The notes below the pieces were generated by a model. It was not told the origin of the DNA. It made no database searches and worked only from the letters and a program-made list of their open reading frames with translations. From contig NZ_JAHLYS010000041.1 in the NCBI RefSeq assembly GCF_025128055.1, forward strand, positions 1 to 54,670: a stretch of DNA of 54,670 nt, read 5' to 3'. The translations under genes were made by a program, and so were the position numbers. Below, in pieces: positions 9,738-53,286 of this stretch. Position 1 is the stretch's first letter; every line of letters starts with the position of its first letter. The DNA is from Synechococcus sp. CS-1329. Its GTDB lineage: Bacteria; Cyanobacteriota; Cyanobacteriia; PCC-6307; Cyanobiaceae.

Positions 9738-10937
9738 ATGCTGCCTGAGATGAGTGCTATCGGTTCCTTGAGTGACCACTCGACCCCTGGCCAGCACACC
9801 ATCTCCTCCGACGCCCCACCAGGACACTCCTTGACCTCCCCGCCCTCCAGCAACGGCATTGTTCCCAGCCAGAGCGCAAGAATTGAGGTGATCGGAGTTG
9901 GGGGCGGCGGCAGCAACGCGGTCAACCGGATGATCGCCTCCGACCTCGAAGGGGTGGGCTACAGGGTGCTCAACACCGACGCCCAGGCCCTGCTCCAATC
10001 AGCAGCCCAGCGGCGGGTGCAGCTCGGTCAGAAGCTCACCCGGGGCCTCGGCGCGGGCGGCAATCCAATGATCGGTCAGAAGGCGGCCGAGGAATCCCGC
10101 AACGAACTCCAGGAAGCTCTGGAAGGGGCCGACCTGGTGTTCATCGCCGCCGGCATGGGCGGTGGCACCGGCACCGGAGCAGCTCCCATCCTCGCTGAGG
10201 TGGCCCGGGAATGTGGCGCCCTCACCGTCGGCATCGTCACCAAGCCCTTCAGCTTCGAGGGGCGCAAGCGCATGAAGCAGGCCGAGGAGGGCATCGCCCG
10301 GCTGGCGGAGCACGTCGACACCCTCATCGTGATCCCCAACGACCGCCTGCGGGATGCCATCTCCGGCGCGCCCCTGCAGGAGGCCTTCCGCGCCGCCGAC
10401 GACATCCTGCGTCAGGGCGTCAAGGGCATCAGTGACATCATCACTCGGCCGGGCCTGGTCAACGTCGACTTCGCCGATGTGCGCTCGGTGATGACCCTCG
10501 CTGGCACGGCCCTGCTGGGCATCGGTGTGGGCTCCGGCCGCTCCCGGGCCGTGGAAGCGGCTCAGGCCGCCATCAGCAGCCCCCTGCTGGAGGCCGCCCG
10601 CATCGATGGGGCCGAGGGCTGCGTGATCAACATCAGCGGTGGCAAGGACATGACCCTCGAGGACATGACCTCGGCCTCCGAAGTGATCTACGACGTGGTG
10701 GATCCCGACGCCAACATCATCGTGGGCGCAGTTGTCGATGAAAAGCTAGAAGGCGAGATCCACGTGACCGTGATCGCCACCGGCTTTGAGGCGGGCAGCA
10801 CGTATCACGTTGAGCGCCCCCGCGCCACCTTCGCCCCCAGCGCTGAGCTCACCCACACCGAAAGCGAAGCTGAGCAGCGCGGCGCCAAGATCCCGCCGTT
10901 CCTGCTTAACCGTCAGAGCCGCAGCAGCGACAGCTGA
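9738..10937 (+). CDS. ftsZ: Cell division GTPase FtsZ
   Basis: The tubulin-like GTPase that forms the division ring. Visible motifs are [14 protein letters not shown], the tubulin signature [12 protein letters not shown], the T7-loop region [11 protein letters not shown], and the C-terminal conserved peptide IPPFLLNRQ that binds membrane anchors. The frame is open from an ATG at 9639, but that first stretch does not look like protein. Starts at 9738 or 9750 fit better, leaving a variable N-tail of about 40 residues as in other picocyanobacteria. A CATAAT box at 9734-9739 overlaps the 9738 start; if it is a -10 element, the 9750 ATG would be used. Confidence 0.95.
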
Positions 10938-42555: not shown

Positions 42556-42639
42556 CCATCCTCAGCCCCCAGCAGCCGCGCCTGGGGTCCATGGGAAACT
42601 GAGCAGGTCGCTGGCCCCTCGGGCCGACGGCAGGCCCCT

Positions 42640-42724
42640 GGAGGGGTGGTCGAGTGGTTGATGGCTCCGGTCTTGAAAACCGGCGAAGGGAAACCTTCCG
42701 CGGGTTCGAATCCCGCCCCCTCCG
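42640..42724 (+). tRNA. tRNA-Ser (TGA anticodon), integration site
   Basis: The acceptor GGAGGGG (42640-42646) pairs with CCCCTCC (42717-42723), with discriminator G at 42724. The anticodon stem CCGGT/ACCGG encloses CTTGAAA, anticodon TGA. A long variable arm (GCGAAGGGAAACCTTCCG region) marks a class II tRNA. The T arm is GCGGG TTCGAAT CCCGC. CCA is not encoded. The tRNA is intact; its 3' 11 bases plus TT form the attachment core repeated at 53274-53286. Confidence 0.96.
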
Positions 42725-42726
42725 TT
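42714..42726 (+). repeat. attL core (13-bp direct repeat, tRNA-Ser 3' end)
   Basis: CGCCCCCTCCGTT, exactly repeated at 53274-53286. It covers the end of the T stem, the acceptor 3' strand, the discriminator and two following bases. This is the usual crossover location for tyrosine integrases that restore the tRNA on insertion. Confidence 0.88.
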
Positions 42727-42835
42727 AAAACAGATTCCTGAGACGGCTGAGAAGGTCCAGAGACCTTGTTGCCTCGTTGGTTCTCAGGGCGTGTTGGTCC
42801 CGGAAAGTCTGCAATGGTCGCCCAAGGTCCAGCAG

Positions 42836-42864
42836 TTGTGTTGGTGCAAGTGTTGGTGTATAAT
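42836..42864 (+). promoter_or_regulatory. Likely integrase promoter overlapping arm sites
   Basis: TTGTGT (42836-42841), a 17-bp spacer and a perfect TATAAT (42859-42864) form a sigma70-type promoter. It lies on top of two arm-type repeats. Transcription would begin near 42871, next to the annotated ATG at 42870. This suggests either a leaderless message or use of the GTG at 42888. Integrase binding here would repress its own gene. Confidence 0.6.
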
Positions 42865-42880
42865 TAGGCATGTTGGTGTA
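42839..42880 (+). repeat. Left cluster of integrase arm-type motifs
   Basis: Three direct copies: TGTTGGTGCA (42839-42848), TGTTGGTGTA (42851-42860) and TGTTGGTGTA (42871-42880), with a weaker TGTTGGTCCC near 42792. The same 10-mer occurs twice at the right end. Paired direct motifs at both ends are typical of arm-type sites for the integrase N-terminal domain. Confidence 0.75.
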
Positions 42881-44111
42881 TTTGGAAGTGACCTTAACTG
42901 ACGCCCAAGTGAAAGCAGCAAAGCCGGCGCTCAAGACTGCAAGGCTCAGCGACGCAGGTGGCCTCCACCTAGAAGTCAACCCTCAAGGAGGTAAGTACTG
43001 GGTCTGGAGGCACCGCTTTCCTCCAATGCGAGCGGGAAAGCCGCAGGATTACCGGATTGGCCCCTATCCAAAAGTTTCTCTGAAAAAAGCCAGAGAGGTT
43101 CGAGACGAGCAAAAGCGAAGACTTTATGAAGAAGGCATTAATCCCTGTTTGGCCAAAAAACAAAATAAAATTGAGAGATACCGACCTGCCCAAGTACTTA
43201 CTTTTGAATCAGTAGCCAGAGAGTGGCACGAAATTAAAACTCAAGGAAAATGGGGCGAACGCCACAGCAATGACGTACTCCAAAAGCTAGTGAGGGATAT
43301 ACTTCCAATGATAGGGCCAATAGAGATAAGAAATATTACGACCCCTGATTGCCTTGGAATTCTTCGGCGAATTGAAAAACGCCAATCGCTAGAGCAAGCG
43401 AAGAGGACACTAGGTGTTGTTTCTCAGGTCTGTGACTATGCTTGTGCTCTGGGGTATTTGTCATCAAACCCAGCACATCCCTTGCGTCGGGAAGCACCTA
43501 TTAAGCAGACAAAAGATAACCATCCTGCTATAAAGTGGGAAGAACTTCCTGAGCTGATTAATGCATTAAATACTAATGAGGTTGGCTCGGATCCGTTGAC
43601 CCGCAATGGTCTTCGACTTTTGATGCTGACGTTTCCTCGAACCAATGAATTAATTGCCGCGGCCTGGGACGAGATCAATTGGACAGAAAAGATATGGACC
43701 GTTCCTGCTGAAAGGATGAAAGGCGCCAGGGGGTCAAGAAAGGAACACTTGATCCCATTATCGGATAAAGCGCTGGAGATATTCAAAGAACTCTACGAGA
43801 TAACAGGGCCTGATGGCTATATCTTCAAGAGCATGCGCACTAAAACGGGATACATGAGCAATAATACCATGAATATGGCGCTAAAAAGAATGGGCTTCGA
43901 CAAGAGAATGTGTGGTCACGGATTTCGCTCGTTTGCCATGACCAATATTCAAGAAAAATTGAAGATTAGTCTCAGGATTGCAAAACGACAGCATGCTCAT
44001 ATAGAGGAGAATAAAGTTACTGCTGCCTATAATCGGGCTGAATACTTGGATGAACGAATTGATATGATGAATAAATGGGCGGCCTTACTAGTTGAACAAG
44101 GTCTAAAATAA
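42870..44111 (+). CDS. int: P4-type tyrosine recombinase/integrase
   Basis: A 413-aa integrase. The N-terminal DUF4102 arm-binding domain reads LTDAQVKAAKPALKTARLSDAGGLHLEVNPQGGKYWVWRHRF with RIGPYPKVSLKKAREVRDE; then comes a core-binding SAM-like domain. The catalytic domain has R257 (FPRTNELIAAAW), H350 and R353 (HGFRSF), H377 (QHAHIE) and Y387 (AAYNRAEYL). All catalytic residues are present, so it should be active. Start may instead be GTG 42888 (VTLTDAQVKAAKP), which fits both the family N-terminus and the promoter position. It sits next to the attL core in tRNA-Ser. Confidence 0.95.
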   Translation: MLVYLEVTLTDAQVKAAKPALKTARLSDAGGLHLEVNPQGGKYWVWRHRFPPMRAGKPQDYRIGPYPKVSLKKAREVRDEQKRRLYEEGINPCLAKKQNKIERYRPAQVLTFESVAREWHEIKTQGKWGERHSNDVLQKLVRDILPMIGPIEIRNITTPDCLGILRRIEKRQSLEQAKRTLGVVSQVCDYACALGYLSSNPAHPLRREAPIKQTKDNHPAIKWEELPELINALNTNEVGSDPLTRNGLRLLMLTFPRTNELIAAAWDEINWTEKIWTVPAERMKGARGSRKEHLIPLSDKALEIFKELYEITGPDGYIFKSMRTKTGYMSNNTMNMALKRMGFDKRMCGHGFRSFAMTNIQEKLKISLRIAKRQHAHIEENKVTAAYNRAEYLDERIDMMNKWAALLVEQGLK

Positions 44112-44312
44112 GAAAACAAGGTTTTAAAAGAATATATATTTACATATACACCTGTCAAGCGCTGTGGCGGTTGAAGTGGTCTGGATGGAGCGGCGTCATC
44201 TTTCCTGGCAGAGGGGGGGGTGCGACGGGCACTTAGATGCTAATGTGCCAAGAGTTGATACCATTTTGCTGGTGAGCAGACCATACTGTGTAACAACTGC
44301 ACCCTTCCAAGG

Positions 44313-45071
44313 ATGAACGGTCTGCTTGCTGCTATGGCGGTTGCAAACCCAGTAATTACCGCTCTGCTGACTGTTGTTGTATTCCTGGAAAAAGATAAGT
44401 TAAAGAAAAGATCCGAAGATATAGAGGCAGCCCTTAAAAATGGCAACGCCGCTATCGTCCAGACTATTGAAGCGCAGAAGCAAGATTTTACCAATATTGC
44501 CGACCGACTAGAGGCACTATCTAAAGACTCTGAAAAGTCAGCAGAGACGTTTATAGGTTTATCTACCGCCCTGACAGAAAGTTCAGCGGTAAGCGCAAAA
44601 GCGCTTGGCGGGGTAACAGAGGGCCTTCAGGCACATGCAACGTCTGTAGCAGGACTCGTTACAGACTTGTCAACCAAGGTGTCCGAGACCAGTGCAACAG
44701 CAATTGCGGACCTTGCTGCAAAGACAGCAGAAGCGATCAAAGTAGTTGCCGATCAAGTCGGAAGGGTAGAGGCAGCGCAAATCGCAAGCAAGGAGGCATC
44801 TACTCAAGCAATTGCGGAACTGGCAGCAAAAAATACAGACTTGTCAACCAAGGTGTCCGAGACCAGTGCAACAGCAATTGCGGACCTTGCTGCAAAGACA
44901 GCAGAAGCGATCAAAGTAGTTGCAGATCAAGTCGGAAGGGTAGAGGCAGCGCAAGCAGAGGCATCAAAGTCATCAGCAGAGTCTGTAGCAAAGTTGACTC
45001 AAGAAATCGCGCAGACAAGTAAATCGATTAAGGAATTACAAGAAACCCTCAAGAGTACTGTGACTCTTTGA
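44313..45071 (+). CDS. Membrane-anchored coiled-coil protein with internal duplication (operon gene 1)
   Basis: A 252-aa protein. Residues about 4-24 (LLAAMAVANPVITALLTVVVF) form one N-terminal transmembrane helix. The rest is a long Ala/Ser/Thr/Glu-rich helix resembling methyl-accepting or phage-tail coiled coils. Residues 117-156 and 175-214 are the same 40-residue unit (TDLSTKVSETSATAIADLAA, then KTAEAIKVVADQVGRVEAAQ), encoded by 120-bp copies differing at one base. It lies 4 bp before gene 2 on the same strand. Likely a membrane sensor, scaffold or effector for the helicase module; this is inference. Confidence 0.85.
   Translation: MNGLLAAMAVANPVITALLTVVVFLEKDKLKKRSEDIEAALKNGNAAIVQTIEAQKQDFTNIADRLEALSKDSEKSAETFIGLSTALTESSAVSAKALGGVTEGLQAHATSVAGLVTDLSTKVSETSATAIADLAAKTAEAIKVVADQVGRVEAAQIASKEASTQAIAELAAKNTDLSTKVSETSATAIADLAAKTAEAIKVVADQVGRVEAAQAEASKSSAESVAKLTQEIAQTSKSIKELQETLKSTVTL
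44661..44954 (+). repeat. 120-bp duplication inside the coiled-coil gene
   Basis: Copy 1 is 44661-44780 and copy 2 is 44835-44954. They are identical except for one base (gttgcCgatc versus gttgcAgatc). The period is 174 bp, exactly 58 codons, so gain or loss of a unit by recombination keeps the reading frame. The near identity implies recent duplication or ongoing homogenisation. Confidence 0.95.
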
Positions 45072-45075
45072 TGAG

Positions 45076-45843
45076 ATGCCTAGAACACTGAGCGAACGCT
45101 ACCTGCTCTATCTAAGGGAAATGAGCAAGAAAGTTGTATTTGGCTCTGGGGCAGTAGGCGATTACTCCCAGGTTCTGATAACAACTACAAGAAAGAAGTC
45201 GCAAAAGAAGTTTCAGCGCATAACAGACCTACGCTTGAGTCAGGTAATAACCAGTGGGACGGAGGGGTATCGCAGGGAACAAGATCAGGAAAAGATCGGC
45301 AACGGAATTTTTTGTGGCGTTGGCATTCTGGCAGGCACCTACACAAAGCGTGTAGGCACCAAAAGCACACTAAGATTAATTGCCGCCCCAACAATTTATG
45401 GTCAGGTTGTCTTTGAAGAAAGTGGCGAAGCGGAGGTTGCAGAGTGGGTTGTGAACTACGATATTGCTACTGCTCTGATAGGAAGAAACGCCGATGAGGA
45501 GGAAGAAGCATACGCAGCATTTGATCCTGAAGCAAATCAAACAGGAGGCCAGATCGTTCAAGATATTGAAGACGTATTGGAAACAGTAACCACAAAGGAT
45601 ATTGGAAGTATCCTAGCAATGTCCGAGAAGTATGTAAGTGGCTTCAAAGATCTGACTGAAACCACCTGTGAGCGAGTAGATACTCCGCTTGAGTGCGTAG
45701 AAGCAGCAATTGATGCCAGAGATAATCTGAAGACTAAAAAGTTCTTCTTCTGTCCAGGTGACTGGGTTTTCTTCGCGCCTGTGCCTCCTGGTCTAAGCAC
45801 ATACAGAGCGTTAGATGACCTTGCCAAGGAGATGGGGCCATGA
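45076..45843 (+). CDS. Helicase-associated protein, possibly the detached N-terminal region (operon gene 2)
   Basis: A 255-aa protein with no catalytic motif. The segment GNGIFCGVGILAGTYTK, then TLRLIAAPTIYGQVVFEESG and WVVNYDIATALIG, resembles the region before the helicase core in COG1112-type SF1 helicases. Its final stretch (GDWVFFAPVPPGLSTYRALDDLAKEM) also looks like the peptide that normally leads into the motor. It overlaps the helicase start by 4 bp (ATGA). I infer a split polypeptide that reassembles with gene 3. The family is otherwise unrecognised. Confidence 0.85.
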   Translation: MPRTLSERYLLYLREMSKKVVFGSGAVGDYSQVLITTTRKKSQKKFQRITDLRLSQVITSGTEGYRREQDQEKIGNGIFCGVGILAGTYTKRVGTKSTLRLIAAPTIYGQVVFEESGEAEVAEWVVNYDIATALIGRNADEEEEAYAAFDPEANQTGGQIVQDIEDVLETVTTKDIGSILAMSEKYVSGFKDLTETTCERVDTPLECVEAAIDARDNLKTKKFFFCPGDWVFFAPVPPGLSTYRALDDLAKEMGP

Positions 45844-48374
45844 AGACACTGGAGCGACTGCTGGAGTCGGTCTTCAGCGGTAAGAAATTTGAATCAGAAC
45901 ACCCGCCAGTACAAGAAGAGCAGATCTTCAAGGTACTAGCGAGACTTCCTTATTCATTATCTAAGTCCCAGCGGACAGCGATTTACCGGGCACTAAGCAA
46001 CGATATTTCTTACATCCAAGGTCCACCTGGGACAGGAAAGTCCTTTACGATTTCTGCCCTTGCAATCGCAGCAAGTGAACTGGGTTTGAAGGTTCTTGTT
46101 GCATCTCAAAAGACTCCCGCAGTAGATATTGTTTATGAGAAAGTCACTGAGGTTCTTGGAGATGCGGCGTGTCTCTACATCTCAGATGACCAGCAGCGAA
46201 AGCAGAACACACGAGGCATCATTGACCGCCTGCTAAGCAAGGCAACCGATTACCAGACAACAAGTGAGGAGAGCGAACTCAAGCGTCTATCGGAGCATGT
46301 AGACACACTCGTGGCAGAACGACTTGATTATGCAAAGCGAATTCAAGAATATGAGTCAGAACTGCGTCGGTACTATGACACGAACCAAGTTGCACAAGAT
46401 TCACGGCAAGTTCTCAAAGAGGACTTTGGTCTACCTGAAATAACAGTAAAGAAAATCAATTTGCTACAAGGCAATGAGAGCAGAGAAAAAGCAAAGGTCT
46501 TACTGAATGAATGCAGAAGCATTCGGGAAGAATCAAGAAAGTTAGGTGGTACCACCACTCTTGAAAAAGGTGTACGACTGAAGATACTTTCTAATGCGGT
46601 ACTACGAGCACTCGACTTTGAAATTGAGTACTATAAGAAGCACCAGGAAGAAGTGCTCGTTAGGTCCTTGACCTACTCATCAAACCTTGCTGATGCTCAG
46701 TCTTTACAGCGAGTAATCAAAGGTCAACCACTAGAAGTTACACGCAGAACATTTGATAGAAGGAATTCAGAGTTATACCCAAAAAATCCAAAAGAATCCG
46801 TACTTGCGCATTATCTAGCGTCACACCACTCGGTCCGCATTAACACACTGCTACAGGGCAGAGAATATAGAGATGCTTTAGATGCCTTTCACCGCAGACT
46901 TAGATGGAAAAATGCCAGAAGAGTGCGATTGGCGAATGCCAAGATTAATTTTGATTTGTTATTTGAAATGTTCCCAATAGTGATGGGAGAGATCAAATCC
47001 CTTCATCCGTACCTACCATTCAAAGAAGAGACTATTGATCTTCTCATATTAGACGAAGCATCTCAGGTCAATCTTGCTGAGATCTTCCCAATCCTATTCA
47101 GAGCGAAGAGATTCTGTATTGTTGGCGATCACAACCAACTTGGTATAAAGGCAGGAGGAGTCATATTCATAAGCAAAGTATTTGAGAAGTTGACCTGGCA
47201 AAAGCAATTTGCTGGTCTTCCTGGATATCCGCTTGATTTCAAATCGGCACAAGAAAGAGACTTGCTTGTATCAGAATCATCCATACTTGATCTGATCAGA
47301 AATGACCTCAATCCAGTAACTGCTGCACCCGTACTGCTAAACGAACACTTCCGTTCGCTGCCAATGCTTGCTGAGTTTACGAGTGAGCAGTTTTACAAAG
47401 ACGAAAGTCCCGAATCGGGACTGCGAATCATGACGGCAGTGCCAGACAAGAAAGCGCTCAATGCTTTTATGGATATAGAGGTCGCAAGCAGACGAGAAGA
47501 GAATTCGCAGATCAACAAGGGCGAGGTTGAGAAGGCATTTGAGGTCATTTTATCCTTTGCAAAACAAGCACCTACTGATTTGACTAAGGAAGTGTTTGGA
47601 ATGCCTCAACTGGTAGGGAAATCAATCTCGTTAGGTGTTGTGTGCTTCATCAGAGACCAAGTAAACTATATGAAAGAGGAAGTTCTGCGTCGGTTGACTG
47701 ATGAACAGCAAGAGCGAATATCTTTAATGATTGGAACTCCAGAGGAATTTCAAGGGAATGAGCGGGATGTGATGATATTCACGCCTGCCATAGACGAAGA
47801 GCAAAAAAGATCAAAAGCATTCATGGAAGACCGCAACCGCTTCAATGTTGCAACCAGCAGAGCAAAATTCTACAAGTACTTTATTCATGGCAAGCTTCCA
47901 TCCAATATGATTCTAATGCAGCAGATGCTGACGAAGATGGGACAAGGTAAGAGTGAAATCAAGGAAATGGACAAGGGTCATCTCCCAATTGGATGGACTT
48001 ACAAGAAGTCTGAATGTGATTCGGACTTTGAGTTGGTAATTGCTGATGTACTGGAAGACCTGATTGTAAGAGAATATCCAAACAGACTGACGCTATACAA
48101 TCAGGTTCGCACCTGCGGATTCAGACTTGACTTCGTGGTATATGACAGAACAAGCAAACGGGCAGTAGGCATTGAAGTTGATGGTAAGTATCACTATCTT
48201 GATAACGGCAGCAGTTATACAGACGAGCATTTAGAGCGGGCAAACGCACTGAAGCGAGCGGATTGGGTCATCAAATACTTGCCGTACTGGAACTGGTTCC
48301 AGGATGGTTGGATTGAGCGTGATGCTGCTGCTGCTAATGAACTACGGCAATTCATTCGCGACTTCTTTAGGTGA
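45840..48374 (+). CDS. SF1 (UPF1/COG1112-like) helicase fused to PD-(D/E)XK nuclease (operon gene 3)
   Basis: An 844-aa protein. Walker A is GPPGTGKS (61-68). A long helical insertion follows (about 100-390). Motif II is DEAS (405-408 in LLILDEASQVN), motif III is FCIVGDHNQLG, motif V is EEFQGNERDVMIF and motif VI is NVATSRAK (669-676). The C-terminal domain has FELVIADVL, QVRTCGFRLDFVVYD with D764, and VGIEVDGKYHY with E779/D781/K783. This is a Vsr/DUF559/MTES_1575-like endonuclease fold. Motor plus nuclease suggests recognition and degradation of foreign nucleic acid. Restriction-like antiphage defence is the likely role, inferred from domains and element context. Confidence 0.92.
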   Translation: MKTLERLLESVFSGKKFESEHPPVQEEQIFKVLARLPYSLSKSQRTAIYRALSNDISYIQGPPGTGKSFTISALAIAASELGLKVLVASQKTPAVDIVYEKVTEVLGDAACLYISDDQQRKQNTRGIIDRLLSKATDYQTTSEESELKRLSEHVDTLVAERLDYAKRIQEYESELRRYYDTNQVAQDSRQVLKEDFGLPEITVKKINLLQGNESREKAKVLLNECRSIREESRKLGGTTTLEKGVRLKILSNAVLRALDFEIEYYKKHQEEVLVRSLTYSSNLADAQSLQRVIKGQPLEVTRRTFDRRNSELYPKNPKESVLAHYLASHHSVRINTLLQGREYRDALDAFHRRLRWKNARRVRLANAKINFDLLFEMFPIVMGEIKSLHPYLPFKEETIDLLILDEASQVNLAEIFPILFRAKRFCIVGDHNQLGIKAGGVIFISKVFEKLTWQKQFAGLPGYPLDFKSAQERDLLVSESSILDLIRNDLNPVTAAPVLLNEHFRSLPMLAEFTSEQFYKDESPESGLRIMTAVPDKKALNAFMDIEVASRREENSQINKGEVEKAFEVILSFAKQAPTDLTKEVFGMPQLVGKSISLGVVCFIRDQVNYMKEEVLRRLTDEQQERISLMIGTPEEFQGNERDVMIFTPAIDEEQKRSKAFMEDRNRFNVATSRAKFYKYFIHGKLPSNMILMQQMLTKMGQGKSEIKEMDKGHLPIGWTYKKSECDSDFELVIADVLEDLIVREYPNRLTLYNQVRTCGFRLDFVVYDRTSKRAVGIEVDGKYHYLDNGSSYTDEHLERANALKRADWVIKYLPYWNWFQDGWIERDAAAANELRQFIRDFFR

Positions 48375-48759
48375 TTAGACATGCCAGTCCGACACCGAAC
48401 CGGATTCCGCTGTGACGATGCAAGTCGTTGTACCAGCTCACGGTCACAACCATCCCACAACCGTAGCCTCCTGGCTGTTACCACGCAACGCTGCCTTGTC
48501 GGCTCCCATCAAGGACTACACATCCTTCGAATGCTGGCCCTCAGTGGCAGGCAGGGAGCCAGGGGTGGCGCGGCAGAGAATTGGTGGTGGCCTGTCCACT
48601 CGAGGGGCTTGTTCGAAGGGTCGCTACTCAGCAGGCTACGTATGCAGACCATTTTTTTCTCGTAGCATTCCTGCATCTTCTGGCTTCCATGCCCCTTAGG
48701 CTTGTTGACCTAAGCTTGTATTATGTGCTTAGATCACAAATAAACTATGTCTACTCAGA
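48375..48759 (+). other. Gene-free spacer after the helicase operon
   Basis: About 385 bp. Short open frames occur on both strands, but their products have no hydrophobic, charged or codon pattern of real proteins. The first part is more GC-rich than the operon, suggesting a patchwork joint. No clear hairpin terminator was found. TTGACC near 48703 could be a -35 element for the following gene, but no good -10 box stands at the right distance. Confidence 0.4.
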
Positions 48760-49146
48760 ATGATCAATGCATCGCTGAACCTCGCCTCGTTGTGCGGAAT
48801 AGCTCTGTTCCTTTGGTGGCTCTTGGCTGTGCCTGCAGCATGTTTTCAAATATGGTTTATACTGACAAGAAGGGCTGATACCTCCCCCGCAGTTGTCGCC
48901 AAGTCATTGCTTACTGCAGCTGTAGGGCTGGGCCGGATTATTGGGCTTCCGGTTGCAGGCTTTATTCTATTCTTTCAAGGCTGGAGGCTTGACCCTATAC
49001 TTCAGTTTGCAGTCATTATCTTGTGCGTTTTACTCGTAGCCGAATCCTCGGCCTCAGTAGCGTCAGACTTTGACCAATGGCGAAGAAGGCTGGGAAGAGC
49101 TGTTGCGGTTATTGGGGTCGATCAGCAGCCAGACGACAATTCATAG
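48760..49146 (+). CDS. Small membrane protein of the element (128 aa)
   Basis: A 128-aa protein with hydrophobic segments at about residues 10-33 (GIALFLWWLLAVPAACFQIWFIL), 50-72 (LLTAAVGLGRIIGLPVAGFILFF) and 78-96 (ILQFAVIILCVLLVAESS). A charged C-terminal tail follows (DFDQWRRRLGRAVAVIGVDQ). No family recognised. It could be a membrane effector or a superinfection-exclusion-type protein, but nothing in the sequence decides this. Confidence 0.6.
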   Translation: MINASLNLASLCGIALFLWWLLAVPAACFQIWFILTRRADTSPAVVAKSLLTAAVGLGRIIGLPVAGFILFFQGWRLDPILQFAVIILCVLLVAESSASVASDFDQWRRRLGRAVAVIGVDQQPDDNS

Positions 49147-49679
49147 ATGAACGCCTATAGCAAACATGTTGCTTACTCCCCAAGCCTTCTAGTTCCTGCA
49201 CGTCTGTTACTCAGCCTATAAGAGTTGAGCTATCGCTCACTCCCGCGGACACCCCCTCTCCTTCGCAACCTATAAAATCATGTGATGTTTGATTGTGTCA
49301 TCGAGGCCTTGGTTATTGCCAGTGCGGACCCCTGAAAGCATAAATGTGTAGTCAATGAATCACGAGGCGTATTTATCCCCAGTCCTTCAAACAGTATTTC
49401 GACGGGTCCAGTATCCACCTCAATCCCTGCCTCATTTTCAGCCTAAGATCCTTCATGGCTTGCAGGTCCAGGGCTGACACCCCTTCCAGGGTTTGGCCTT
49501 TGCTCGGATTGGAGAGTGGACAAGGGTGTAACAGGCGTGTCTGTGAACCAATTGCTCGTTCAGCTTAAGGCCACCTAGAAAAATCCGAAAAATCAGCCGA
49601 GACTGTCAATCTGACTCCAGTCTCGGCAAGGGATCTTAGCCGTATAGACGGTCGAAAAAGGTGATTTTCAGAGGTGCCC
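49147..49679. other. Non-coding stretch with an inverted repeat
   Basis: About 530 bp with no convincing gene on either strand. The notable feature is the perfect 10-bp dyad at 49596-49627. It lies between a plus-strand membrane gene and the end of the minus-strand AlpA-like gene, so both are convergent on it. Confidence 0.45.
49596..49627. repeat. Inverted repeat near the AlpA gene end
   Basis: GCCGAGACTG (49596-49605) and CAGTCTCGGC (49618-49627) are exact complements with a 12-nt loop. There is no T tract immediately downstream on plus, so a factor-independent terminator is uncertain. It might terminate transcription from the convergent genes or bind a regulator. Confidence 0.55.
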
Positions 49680-49871
49680 TTAAGCTACTTGCATCTGAGA
49701 GGTCATCCATTGTTGGATATGAGCCTCTGCCCAAACAACCCGCCTTGGACCAAGCTTGATTTGGGGAGGAAATTCCCCATTTGCCATTTTGGCGTAAATA
49801 GAAGACTTAGAAAGACTAGTCATTGCCTCAACTTCACAACGGCGAAGAAACTTACCGATAGAATTTTGCAT
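49680..49871 (-). CDS. AlpA-family regulator/excisionase
   Basis: A 63-aa winged-helix protein. FLRRCEVEAMTSLSKSSIYAKMANGEFPPQIKLGPRRVVWAEAHIQQWM is the AlpA/MerR-like pattern (L-r-e-v... S-tIY... FP...G.R.v.W...v..W). The start at 49871 is fixed by GGAGG 8 bases upstream; a longer in-frame start at 49916 lacks this. AlpA-type proteins switch on integrase or act as excision factors in P4-like elements, consistent with the integrase here. Confidence 0.88.
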   Translation of the reverse strand: MQNSIGKFLRRCEVEAMTSLSKSSIYAKMANGEFPPQIKLGPRRVVWAEAHIQQWMTSQMQVA

Positions 49872-49936
49872 AATTAACCTCCAAAAAAAAGACAAAAAAA
49901 ATGGGGCCTTGACCAAACCCGGAAAATGATATTCAA

Positions 49937-50155
49937 TTAATTCAAAGCTTGTTTATATTTAAGCTTTGCTTGTAGGTAAGGGTTGGCCAGAGCTAGCGAC
50001 CCCTGTATCATCACCCTGAAATGGCTTGGCCAGGAACTAGATGTACCAGTTTGCTGACTGGCTATCGATTGCTGAGTTGAAGAGGCCAAAGGACTGTATT
50101 GGCTTCTCCGTTGACACAGAGCATGATGCACTAGCTTAAGTCTGTATAGAGGCAC
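49937..50155 (-). CDS. Doubtful small ORF (72 aa)
   Basis: A GTG-initiated frame between the HUH-like gene and the AlpA-like gene, same strand. The product is Ser/Gln-rich, ending LANPYLQAKLKYKQALN. There is no good ribosome site and no recognisable family. It is listed because the stretch is otherwise empty; it may simply be spacer. Confidence 0.22.
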   Translation of the reverse strand: MPLYRLKLVHHALCQRRSQYSPLASSTQQSIASQQTGTSSSWPSHFRVMIQGSLALANPYLQAKLKYKQALN

Positions 50156-50319
50156 CTTCTGCTCAGAAAAAATCCCGCAGAATAATTAGCTTAGATGGAC
50201 CCGCTTGTATAGCTTATTTAAAGGTACTTTTTTTAATGGACAAGAAGATTTAATAAATCTAGTTCTATACGTAATACCACTGTTAGCCAGGGATTCTTCA
50301 TGCATGGACACTCCCGTTA

Positions 50320-50997
50320 CTATTTGCTCCTGCATTCAGAATTCACGCTTTCTGGAACAACCATATTCTCAATGTCGAGAACCAAGTCGCGATCCTGATG
50401 GTTTTGGAATCTAGAAAAATCCTTCAGATTATAAAAAGCATGGCGCTTATAATTCCAAGGAAGAATCACTACTCCCTGATTAAATCTGGATTTATTCTTT
50501 GAAATCCGCTGGGCTTTTGTAGTAAGGTAGAAACCAAGAAGACACTTTATCTCAGTGTTATATGTATCGTAAGGATCAGGACAGCAACCTAGGTGAAGAT
50601 GTGAATGATATCCTATTCCATATCTTGGTCTTGAGTTGCTTTGGTTAATGATCATATTCTGTTTCTCATGAAACCATAATGCCAGTGGCCGTTCAGGATG
50701 TTTTTTTATCTTCCTTTTGTTGCACTTAAGCATTTTCGACAGCAGCATATTATTGATGTACCTAGCTTCATTGACTGCTTCTTCAAAACTACGTACTATT
50801 GGATAGTATTCTATGGTAATAAACCACTTAGGATTACTATACGTTGAATAAAGCTCCTTTAAATACTCCTTGGTTGCATCTAGAATCGATGATGAGTCTA
50901 CTTTATTGTTATGATCCAGTAGACTCTTTTTGGTTGAAACTAGGTGTTTAGATCCTTGAGTCGGTTTAATATTCTTTAAATATAATGGTGTTTCCAT
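50320..50997 (-). CDS. Putative HUH-type replication/relaxase-like protein
   Basis: A 225-aa basic protein. KWFITIEYYP (57-66) resembles Rep motif I. YHSHLHLG gives the His-hydrophobic-His pair H133-L-H135 of motif II. FYNLKDF gives Y189-x-x-K192, a motif III-type catalytic tyrosine. Together these suggest a rolling-circle Rep or mobilisation nicking enzyme. AGGAG 9 bases before the ATG at 50997 supports the start. The region is very AT-rich. The call is motif-based and spacing is somewhat unusual, so confidence is moderate. Confidence 0.6.
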   Translation of the reverse strand: METPLYLKNIKPTQGSKHLVSTKKSLLDHNNKVDSSSILDATKEYLKELYSTYSNPKWFITIEYYPIVRSFEEAVNEARYINNMLLSKMLKCNKRKIKKHPERPLALWFHEKQNMIINQSNSRPRYGIGYHSHLHLGCCPDPYDTYNTEIKCLLGFYLTTKAQRISKNKSRFNQGVVILPWNYKRHAFYNLKDFSRFQNHQDRDLVLDIENMVVPESVNSECRSK

Positions 50998-51421
50998 AAC
51001 TTATTCTCCTTATTAACCTGTGTCTATTGGCTTCTTATCTATTTGGTATTTGAAGGAATCATTTATCTATTCTTTCTTTATTGATGTCTTGGTAATCTTT
51101 AAAATTCTCTGTTTTCTTGATATTATAAAATCCTCTGAGTTATGACTTTTTCTCAGCAAATCAAAATATTGAAAGCAAATATGATACTTGGCCTCTGCTC
51201 TAGTTCTTATATTCTACTTATTTTTCACTCAAGCTTGAACTCCTATCATACAGCTTCCTTTAAATCCTGTCAAGTCTTTTTTCGTTTATGTCTTCACAGA
51301 TAGAATCCAGAATCATATTTAGAATACTATTCCTTTGATGATTTCATCTTCTTCTGTATCGGTTGATACAAATCTAGATCACTCATTAGAGTGCTGAATG
51401 ATGCCACATTTCCCTGCTCCA
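50998..51421. other. AT-rich spacer upstream of the HUH-like gene
   Basis: About 420 bp, the most AT-rich stretch in the window, with no plausible ORF and many T-rich runs on the plus strand. Being next to a Rep-like gene, it is a candidate origin region, but I found no iterons. It is also the likely promoter region for the Rep-like gene. Confidence 0.4.
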
Positions 51422-51553
51422 TCACTTTTTAACCTTCTTGTAATTCCCCCTTATCATTTCCAGTGTGTACTCAACCGGTTTCTTGTGGGCCATTTCAGCA
51501 AGCTCAAGGAGCATTTGATATTCAACAGCTGGAATCGGAATATTCCTGCTCAT
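51422..51553 (-). CDS. 43-aa ribbon-helix-helix-like protein
   Basis: Reads MSRNIPIPAVEYQMLLELAE, then MAHKKPVEYTLEMIRGNYKK and VKK. A short strand (NIPIPA) followed by two helices is the RHH/CopG-like layout. Its ATG overlaps the stop of the upstream 80-aa gene (ATGA), strong evidence that both are translated. Likely a DNA-binding partner or antitoxin-like regulator; function is inferred. Confidence 0.55.
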   Translation of the reverse strand: MSRNIPIPAVEYQMLLELAEMAHKKPVEYTLEMIRGNYKKVKK

Positions 51554-51792
51554 TTACATTCTCCAGAGACATTATCATCACTTAACTTTTTAGCTACATA
51601 TAGATCAACAGATTCCTTCTGTGTTACTGCTTTATGCAGCCTCAGAAGATAGTGTAAAGTGTTGGTTCTTGATGCTCTAATCTCTCTGCAAACAGAGTCA
51701 AACTCATTCAACGTTCTCTTGTGCCTTCTCCCGAAATATAGGCTAATAAAAGTCCCCTCTTCTGCATCTTTAAATAATGGTTTCATTTTCAT
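51550..51792 (-). CDS. 80-aa CopG/RHH-like protein
   Basis: Contains GTFISLYFGRRHKRTLNEFDSVCREIRASRTNTLHYLLRLHKAV: a strand, then a helix-turn-helix pattern like CopG/ParD-type regulators (F-D-x-V...SRTxxLHYLLRL). Coupled by 4 bp to the 43-aa gene. May control plasmid-like copy number or expression of the neighbouring Rep-like gene. Confidence 0.55.
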   Translation of the reverse strand: MKMKPLFKDAEEGTFISLYFGRRHKRTLNEFDSVCREIRASRTNTLHYLLRLHKAVTQKESVDLYVAKKLSDDNVSGECK

Positions 51793-52079
51793 CTATTTCA
51801 CTTACTCTGTATATATTTATAATAGTTTGAATCTCTAGTGAGAAAAGTTGATGGTCATCTATCTACAAGACCATAGATTTAATTATAATATTGCCTCTCC
51901 TCCCACTGACCTTCCGCTAGCAGCCCTCCCCCTTACCAATTTCCTTCACCACCGCAGACATCTCCATCAAGCTCCTGATGGACACTACCATCGCCTTACG
52001 TGAGATCTAGACACGCATGAACGCCCACGCCTTCTCGGCTGTCCACAACCCTGAGCAAGGGCCAGCCAATGGCATGCCA

Positions 52080-52394
52080 TTAGTCATCTTTGCTAGCAAT
52101 ACCAAGTGCTGCAATTAAGAGACTAATCAAAAACCACTGAACTCCCCAAATCATCGGGCTAAAGAACAAGCCGACGCCTCCCCAAATGAACGGGTTTGTT
52201 CCCGTCCAGATCATAGTCCCAATTGGGACACCCAATGGACCACCAAATAGGCCGCTGACACCTCTGACAATCGTCGGGTTCCCCTTCTTGCTGGGGAAGC
52301 TCTCTGGTGCAGTACTGACTCCATACCAACAACCACCAATTGCCAAGGAGGCCATGGCAAGACTTCCAATTACAAAAGAATTTTTATTTGACAC
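52080..52394 (-). CDS. Small membrane protein (104 aa)
   Basis: A GTG-initiated frame beginning SNKNSFVIGSLAMASLAIGGC, which could be a lipobox-like or TM start (AIGGC). Further hydrophobic segments are GVSGLFGGPLGVPIGTMIW and MIWGVQWFLISLLIAALGIA. A weak ribosome site makes the start unsure. No family recognised. Confidence 0.5.
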   Translation of the reverse strand: MSNKNSFVIGSLAMASLAIGGCWYGVSTAPESFPSKKGNPTIVRGVSGLFGGPLGVPIGTMIWTGTNPFIWGGVGLFFSPMIWGVQWFLISLLIAALGIASKDD

Positions 52395-52551
52395 TTATCT
52401 TAGGCAATAAGTACATATCTAGAGTAGTGACTTAAGTATTCACTTAATGTAGCTGTCAATACCATCATGCCGATATTTGCCTGCTCAGCTGGCCTCCAGC
52501 AACCGTTTTGAGCACTGGACGGCACTGAAACAGCCCGAAGCTTATATATGG

Positions 52552-53004
52552 CTACCTTGAAAAGCCAACTCGGTCTGCAGAATAACGAATTGCTTCCTTA
52601 TTGCACCACAATGCTGCCCCAAAGAAGAACACTAGAAACTGCGGAAGAAACTGAATTGCAATAAGGACTATCCCGCCTTTGCCCCTTGCTTTTGTTGCGA
52701 CACTGCCTGCTACTTTGGATTCTATCGGTATTCCTTGGTATCCCATATTCCATAAATGAAATCCTTGAAATATCATTATCACTGAACATCCTGCACCAAC
52801 TAGGGTCAAGATCGCGCCAAACAACTCTAGAGGACTGCCTTTCTTTGAATCTTCAACAATTGATGCGCCAATGCCTAGCCCTAGTGCCGCAATTAGTGCA
52901 ATCCATGCCGCCGTAGCACCATCCATAGGAGTGATTAAAGTGTTATCTCCCCTAACTCTATCTCGCAGCCTAGCTTCCATGTAAATTTCATCCCTCTGAT
53001 TCAT
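52552..53004 (-). CDS. Membrane protein (150 aa)
   Basis: A charged N-terminus (NQRDEIYMEARLRDRVRGD) is followed by three hydrophobic helices: AAWIALIAALGLGIGASIV, LFGAILTLVGAGCSVIMIFQGF and IVLIAIQFLPQFLVFFFGAALW. No family recognised. It is the last gene before the right end of the element. Together with 52080-52394 and 48760-49146 it adds to an unusual number of small membrane proteins in the element. Confidence 0.6.
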   Translation of the reverse strand: MNQRDEIYMEARLRDRVRGDNTLITPMDGATAAWIALIAALGLGIGASIVEDSKKGSPLELFGAILTLVGAGCSVIMIFQGFHLWNMGYQGIPIESKVAGSVATKARGKGGIVLIAIQFLPQFLVFFFGAALWCNKEAIRYSADRVGFSR

Positions 53005-53190
53005 GCACCCTGGGGCTTGACGGAGAGGATTAATGCGTCGTTTTTACGAGGCCAGCAAGGCTGGCGTGTGAGGTGGACTGGCTTTTCTGGACAGCTCCCA
53101 TCGTTAACCTCTGAGGCGAGGCACCTCCGCCAAATGGTCGCTCCCAGGTTCCCGAAGGGTCTCAGCAGGTCCAAGGAGTTCCAAAAAATG

Positions 53191-53212
53191 TGTTGGTGTA
53201 TGTGTTGGTGTA
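53191..53212 (+). repeat. Right pair of integrase arm-type motifs
   Basis: TGTTGGTGTA at 53191-53200 and again at 53203-53212, in the same orientation as the left copies and with the same 12-bp period as the first two there. Supports recognition of both ends by the element's integrase. Confidence 0.8.
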
Positions 53213-53273
53213 AATTCTTTGCGAATCCTGAGACTTATTCCAGGAGCTTCCAGAATGGTCCTGTTTAGAAGGA

Positions 53274-53286
53274 CGCCCCCTCCGTT
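53274..53286 (+). repeat. attR core (13-bp direct repeat)
   Basis: CGCCCCCTCCGTT, an exact copy of 42714-42726. Upstream bases (GGA) differ from the tRNA, so no second tRNA is formed here; the sequence to its right is the original chromosomal flank of tRNA-Ser. Confidence 0.88.

Follow-up and report, generated by a model that had tools for sequence, protein, structure and literature searches.

The window analyzed here, a 54,670-nt stretch of DNA from Synechococcus sp. CS-1329, lies on a contig of a 2.58-Mb genome and contains an integrative element of 10.6 kb seated in a tRNA-Ser gene. The 13-bp core CGCCCCCTCCGTT occurs at the 3' end of tRNA-Ser(TGA) (positions 42639–42725) as attL (42714–42726, forward strand), and its second copy on the same strand forms attR (53274–53286). 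The GC content of the island bounded in this way (42714–53286) is 0.449, and that of the host DNA to its left is 0.684. The gene that comes next after the tRNA, which ends at 42725, encodes a tyrosine recombinase (integrase; 42870–44111, forward strand) with matches to the Pfam families Phage_integrase (7.1e−14), Arm-DNA-bind_3 (2.3e−21), and Phage_int_M (1.2e−25), and an AlpA-type excisionase/regulator is encoded on the reverse strand at 49680–49916 (Phage_AlpA, 5.7e−20; PHROG excisionase and transcriptional regulator, 1.5e−11). Just within both island ends lie repeats of TGTTGGTG(C/T)A (at 42839, 42851, and 42871 on the left and 53191 and 53203 on the right), which resemble integrase arm sites.

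The insertion site was surveyed in eight other genomes of the genus. In five of them (G142, G124, G102, G157, and G182), a close relative of the 387-aa gene that is the right neighbor of the island lies 81–85 bp from the tRNA, indicating that the site is empty in these sister genomes. In four of these five, the 30 nt preceding the core were identical to the left flank of the island, and after the core the right flank was the better match, but only narrowly (11–14 vs 6–10 of 30 ungapped positions; 11 vs 10 at L054); the fifth (L055) was judged from the alignment. G170 and G076 each carry copies of the tRNA-Ser on two contigs, as if another insertion had occurred at the same site, and G035 gave distant matches only.

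The Pfam scan covered 10 window ORFs and showed neither a conjugation gene nor an FtsK/Tra translocase among them, and no packaging or capsid gene matched above chance level among the ORFs scanned (10 in Pfam, 7 in PHROGs). A search of the island against Rfam returned one tRNA and otherwise rows below threshold. Three closely packed genes at 44313–48374 encode products of 252 aa (with a coiled-coil-like repeat), 255 aa (of no known family), and 844 aa (an SF1 helicase with a RAP/MTES_1575 nuclease-like end); this trio resembles parts of defense systems (MkoA and Hhe, with a weak match to ZorA). Within the 252-aa gene, a 121-nt direct repeat is present in two copies that are 99% identical (44660–44954).

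The rep gene (50320–50997, reverse strand) encodes a 225-aa protein that resembles a single-tyrosine HUH replication initiator. A preceding reading of this DNA, made from the sequence only, had pointed to the motifs H133-x-H135 and Y189xxK192 in this ORF; both lie at these positions, and H131 is a third histidine in the first of them (H131xH133xH135). When the window protein was aligned with nine homologues sharing 25–38% identity with it, the residues invariant in all 10 sequences included H131, H133, H135, Y189, K192, and E111, as well as F59, N83, R103, W181, H186, and N190. A loss of the His or Tyr motifs among homologues was sought and not found, and their invariance at such low identity indicates that the motifs are more than a chance occurrence. 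The catalytic residues were also invariant in a set of seven sequences to which two new homologues had been added. Motif I (UUTU) is present in the window protein as F59-I-T-I62; in the homologues it reads FGSI, FGTI, FITL, FITI, or FVTI, with Ser for Thr in two of them (L003 and L004). The histidines of motif II (HUH; H133 and H135) and the YxxK of motif III (Y189 and K192), which follows motif II, were found in 10 of 10 sequences, the window protein included. The order of the motifs, with HUH at 131–135 and then Tyr189, is that of an initiator, and the permutation of MOB relaxases is absent; PMC6668415 describes the Rep motifs I, II, and III in an order matching that of the window family and the motifs of Mob relaxases as circularly permuted relative to those of Reps.

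No family in Pfam, PHROGs, or NCBIfam explains the 225-aa protein, nor does any PDB sequence. In Pfam it had no match at E-values up to 10, with no SF3 helicase domain, and no Rep-family profile in Pfam or PHROGs matched any of the 10 members. A profile search of the PDB hit 21 dynein light chains and one dysferlin (22 rows in all; best E-value, 0.005); all of these lie before the HUH segment of the profile and were taken as chance. No match to PF11726 (YagK/YfjJ) turned up in the 11 related genomes that were scanned for it.

Structures were predicted with AlphaFold for the window Rep (7 sequences; mean pLDDT, 66) and for the Rep of a relative, L015 (9 sequences; mean pLDDT, 75, with 78 of 222 residues at 90 or above). 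Both models show a strand with motif I, a helix, a strand with the invariant Glu (Glu111), a strand with HUH, a helix, a strand, and a short helix. Tyr189 lies inside the last helix in the window model, the corresponding Tyr192 lies just past it in the L015 model, and in both the catalytic Tyr adjoins a low-confidence stretch (pLDDT <50 in the L015 model). Foldseek gave no match below an E-value of 0.001, the viral library included, and its top PDB rows for both models were unrelated folds; RepB of pMV158 was among the weak rows for the window model. In a second look with VIA-align, adeno-associated virus (AAV) Rep domains occupied the first nine rows for the window model (Z, 7.8 to 6.9) and the first eight for the L015 model (Z, 8.1 to 7.3), with an rmsd of 3.3–3.9 over 116–124 residues. 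The first unrelated rows (efflux-pump and ribosomal domains) had Z values of 6.7 and 7.1 for the window and L015 models, respectively. Unrelated ferredoxin-like folds came within about 1 Z unit of the AAV Rep rows, and VIA-align itself cautions that a Z below 8 may reflect a mere common arrangement. In the viral library (BFVD), the first row was a microvirus replication initiator (Foldseek probability, 0.94; E-value, 0.01), and the rows after it were mostly without a name. The predicted arrangement fits that of HUH/Rep proteins, and a fold unlike HUH was looked for and not found; HUH Reps ranked first by VIA-align and in the viral library, although at modest scores. The fold alone is insufficient for an assignment; taken together with the invariant motifs, these models indicate that the 225-aa protein is likely a Rep-type HUH nuclease.

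Of 200 other genomes of the host family, the Cyanobiaceae, 9 carry homologues of Rep. When 386 genomes of the phylum were searched with a profile, seven had matches, the window's own included, all of them in the host family, and a profile scan of genome_contigs gave eight loci in records named Cyanobium, Vulcanococcus, Synechococcus, and a Synechococcaceae MAG; the sources of the relatives are Cyanobiaceae and further Synechococcus-like records. With a single sequence as the query, genome_contigs and viral_contigs gave no relatives, nor did the profile scan of viral_contigs (IMG/VR) or tblastn with the window and L015 Reps against phages (50,697 phage records) and plasmids, and no free plasmid or phage form of the rep element was found in these scans. 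The gene is single-copy in the window's genome. Among relatives, with the window copy outside the comparison, dN/dS was 0.13–0.34 in five of five pairs, and rep is truncated or interrupted in L020, L021, L032, L033, and L035.

Two small genes on the rep strand lie upstream of rep and overlap by 4 bp: rhh1 (51550–51792), encoding a putative ribbon-helix-helix protein of 80 aa, and rhh2 (51422–51553), encoding one of 43 aa. Their coupling is as the sequence-only reading had described. Its label of RHH-like is plausible from the strand-helix-helix pattern (the segment ISLYFG followed by two helices resembles a ribbon-helix-helix), but profile searches gave no match to an RHH family for the small proteins. 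All 13 other close loci (L014–L021 and L031–L035; L039, from the same genome as L020, was left out) have a relative of rhh1 downstream of rep and in the same orientation. The gap between the two genes is 22–47 nt in 10 loci and longer in L033 (107 nt, measured from an internal stop), L032 (301 nt), and L020 (527 nt). In 10 of the 13 loci, a second small gene overlaps the end of the rhh1 relative by 4 bp, with a GTG start in L031, and relatives of the 43-aa window protein were detected in or beside four loci (L014, L015, L017, and L031). Beside the distant homologues L036–L038, rhh1 was not detected. The linkage of rep with the small genes is conserved. Their order in the window, which the earlier reading had described, is the unusual one: small genes before rep are the exception among the 14 close loci. 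In L020, L021, and L035, the rhh1 gene still adjoins a truncated rep; as islands decay, rep seems to be lost before the small genes. Two further genomes with rhh1 and no rep (L089 and L090) gave no match to the rep profile below an E-value of 0.08 in 13 kb each; the rhh1 relative of L090 (6169–6351) lies in a 13-kb stretch with an integrase-like gene, as judged by eye.

Between rhh2 and rep, a 424-nt spacer (50998–51421) forms the leader of rep on the reverse strand. It is AT-rich, as had been noted before, with a GC content of 0.316 vs 0.449 in the island and 0.684 in the host DNA to the left; 331 of the island's 10,149 windows of this length were as AT-rich or more so. A sigma-70-type promoter, TTGACA-17-TATGAT (51245–51273, reverse strand), matches at 11 of 12 positions and aligns with TATAAT boxes upstream of rep in relatives; promoter-like sites in the spacer were only mildly enriched (11, against a shuffle mean of 6.8 with an sd of 3.0). 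Two CAGAGG boxes follow on the same strand (51192–51197 and 51132–51137), spaced 60 nt apart in the window, 60 in L031, and 59 in L015. CAGAGG was the commonest 6-mer upstream of rep, present in 10 of 11 sequences compared, but the best 6-mer of the shuffles themselves reached 9, and the relatives are not independent of one another. The alignment of the promoter and the spacing of the boxes indicate that the rep leader is conserved in part.

In the spacer, the only match to the hairpin pattern of relatives has a 4-bp stem (51147–51166) and was taken as chance, and no nick site was found. Inside rep, a 9-bp stem with a 15-nt loop (50894–50926, reverse strand; codons 24–34) is a weak candidate for an origin hairpin: its single-stranded DNA fold had a z of −2.77, with 2 of 200 shuffles as good, and a stem of at least 9 bp with a loop of 3–20 nt was present in 20 of 300 shuffles of 50800–51421.

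In 10 aligned relatives, one or two adjacent hairpins occupy the 5' end of the rep frame, starting 19 nt after the ATG in L014, L015, L017, and L031. In L014, for example, the stem-loops are GTTGC-GA-AC-GAA-GT-GA-GCAAC and ATTCAC-GA-GC-AAA-GC-GA-GTGAAT. In the alignment, 92.9% of 140 cells were paired, and 8 of 15 pairs were altered on both sides, as compensatory changes. The covariation score was 0.332 vs 0.003–0.062 in six slid controls and was reached by none of 500 shuffles; the number of further pair types was reached by 70 of 500. Because the structure was drawn from one of the aligned sequences and L016, L032, L033, and L034 are close relatives, these counts represent fewer independent events than cells. 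Helix 2 retains 7 or 8 of 8 pairs in all 10 relatives. Helix 1 retains 6 or 7 of 7 pairs in seven and 4 of 7 in L034, and it is absent from L018 and L019, where another small hairpin is found. G-A steps occur in helix 2 in 8 of 10 relatives (not in L031 or L015) and in helix 1 in 7 of 10.

A strict form of the hairpin motif (stem of 5 or more) was scanned for in 16 other distinct loci and the window island. It was found at rep in nine of the 16 (L014–L018 and L031–L034) and was missing from L019 (where the hairpin is imperfect), the truncated L020, L021, L035, the distant L036–L038, and the window island. The pattern of the second hairpin was present in 5 of 10 genomes: it matched exactly at six sites, each of them at rep, and with a mismatch at one site elsewhere. 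Of the 28 loci that matched the hairpin pattern in IMG/VR, none had a relative of rep or rhh1 by profile. On seven loci, Rfam gave only tRNAs at the gathering threshold. The single-stranded DNA of L014, L015, L017, L018, and L032 folded better than most shuffles (z, −2.0 to −3.0), with helix 1 missing from the best fold of L015, L018, and L032. Synonymous change was not clearly lower in the hairpins (pS 0.31 vs 0.57, 0.28 vs 0.30, and 0.29 vs 0.40 in three pairs). In L032, the frame is broken between the hairpins and the core of the gene, and both hairpins are intact. Just past the two hairpins and near this break, L032 also has a 20-bp perfect palindrome with a 3-nt loop (9757–9799), of which an imperfect version was seen by eye in relatives. 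The hairpins of the relatives are a candidate origin or else an mRNA element; initiators with an origin inside their own gene include those of phiX174 and pT181. Since the relatives' hairpins are absent from the window copy and its small genes are placed differently, this copy may be a drifting or decaying variant.

Related elements occupy other tRNA genes. Four distinct ones (L031, L032, L033, and L039) are flanked by exact 26–33-bp repeats of the tRNA-Cys end, which lie ~6 to 8.4 kb apart. Among these four att-bounded elements, rep is intact only in L031; it has a broken frame or a stop in L032 and L033 and is truncated in L039. For the tRNA-Ser(CGA) elements L014 and L018, att repeats were sought and not found. 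The integrase and AlpA of the window have relatives in L014 and L018, and an integrase of a second type is shared by L015, L031, L032, L033, and L020/L039; the stretches examined for the other six close loci held no clear relative of either. The occurrence of two integrase types across 7 of 13 other loci indicates that the same rep module has been joined to at least two integration modules. The linkage of rep with the small genes and their placement in att-bounded elements fit an integrative plasmid, and the earlier reading of a plasmid-like cassette is supported in part.

The presence of a replication-initiator-like gene with a small-gene partner within an integrative element is well supported. 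With a rep-like gene and two putative DNA-binding proteins in the island, it is probable that the element is circular and self-copying after excision, and we infer that the module most likely serves to replicate the excised circle by the rolling-circle mode: the 225-aa Rep and the small genes would probably constitute the replication module of the element. In such a mechanism, the integrase and AlpA would excise the island as a circle, and Rep would nick one strand at an origin near the 5' end of its own gene, provided in relatives by the hairpins and in the window by the unrelated hairpin or by the leader with its CAGAGG boxes. Rep would stay attached to the 5' end via Tyr189 while a host polymerase copied the circle by rolling-circle replication. 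On pMV158-type plasmids, CopG represses rep transcription and sets the copy number, and the small proteins would act on rep in the same manner. A more specific proposal is that this unnamed HUH initiator family marks out a lineage of rolling-circle plasmids of the integrative kind in Cyanobiaceae. The pair of adjacent hairpins in the first rep codons, most of which have tandem G-A mismatches and three-base loops, would be the origin of these plasmids and would be maintained through compensatory changes; we put this proposal forward tentatively and consider it doubtful in this full form.

The strongest competing explanation concerns the hairpins, which might act at the RNA level, as part of the rep mRNA or as a target of antisense RNA, with the origin elsewhere; we give it somewhat less than an even chance. 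Hairpins placed so soon after the ATG would fold in the mRNA too, and they are preceded by a promoter and a long leader that contains CAGAGG boxes. Nothing decisive speaks against it, and the intact hairpins beside the broken frame of L032 fit either nucleic-acid role, origin or RNA. The element might instead be a phage satellite, whose Rep would fire only upon infection by a helper phage and whose circle would be packaged in helper particles. It is common for satellites to combine an integrase with an AlpA-type regulator and a replication module. Marine families (VEIMEs and tycheposons) and satellites of Cyanobacteria have been proposed (PMC11389934); however, the chance-level matches to packaging and capsid genes and the lack of any relative in IMG/VR contigs or the 50,697 phage records make this explanation rather unlikely.

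Two further alternatives assign another role to the nuclease itself. HUH nucleases act in both replication and mobilization, and the island is small and without a conjugation gene among the 10 ORFs scanned, as would suit a relaxase that nicks the excised circle at an oriT so that the conjugation machinery of a helper can transfer it, with replication secondary or absent. Here, however, HUH precedes Tyr, unlike the circularly permuted Mob order given in PMC6668415, and we regard a mobilization relaxase as improbable. Alternatively, Rep may be a transposase for single-stranded DNA that acts on hairpins, like those of IS200/IS605 or the REP-associated (RAYT) enzymes. For such enzymes, the HUH-then-Tyr order and adjacent hairpins would fit, but their hallmark is dispersed copies of the gene or its hairpins. 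The window's genome has one copy of rep, the second hairpin occurs beyond rep at a single mismatched place in 10 genomes, rhh1 adjoins the close homologues in 13 of 13 loci, and the ends, where found, are integrase att repeats, so that a transposase is very improbable.

Compared with known systems, the rolling-circle module proposed here resembles the pE194/pMV158 and pC194 plasmids in the HUH-then-Tyr order, the small size, the small coupled putative RHH partner, and the AT-rich region beside rep. It differs from them in that no Pfam Rep family matches any of the 10 members and that rep of the window family lies on an integrated element, usually before the small genes. The signature of the pE194/pMV158-like cluster, given as YLxH in PMC6668415, also contrasts with YNLK in the window Rep. 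The actinomycete element pSAM2 is likewise integrative and has its own rolling-circle initiator (RepSA), which nicks a double-strand origin (PMC3218068); unlike elements of this type, the window island has no FtsK/Tra among the 10 ORFs scanned, and the host phylum is unrelated. The pCRESS plasmids, described in PMC6668415, share the three motifs and include Rep elements integrated site-specifically in bacterial chromosomes, whereas the window Rep, compared by description, is only 225 aa long with no helicase domain match. ICEBs1 is an integrative element capable of autonomous rolling-circle replication once activated (PMC4595007), but it has its own conjugation machinery, of which there is none among the window ORFs scanned. 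With pSAM2 (PMC3218068) and ICEBs1 (PMC4595007) described in this way, rolling-circle integrative elements are a known kind. The strand-biased integrative elements of Vibrio (PMC9345347) were considered as a parallel and set aside. In the literature searched, to which the main tycheposon paper does not belong, there was no description of this Rep family.

Tycheposons and other tRNA-linked islands of picocyanobacteria are, like this island, small and integrase-bearing and reside in related hosts. Such small islands at tRNA genes are regarded as important vehicles by which picocyanobacteria exchange genes. A conserved replication module bears on how they persist and spread: it would account for the survival of an excised island through cell division and for its arrival in new hosts, and it points to a concrete candidate origin. 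The Rep family and its intragenic hairpin pair had no match in the libraries searched, suggesting that such elements are probably under-counted, and a rep/origin pair native to these hosts might be of use for vectors. The more distant proteins of L036, L037, and L038, also from genomes of the host family, are HUH-like, their motifs reading HTHMHL or HTHLI for the histidines and YNFK or YLGK for the tyrosine, and these perhaps represent sister families of the same kind of initiator.
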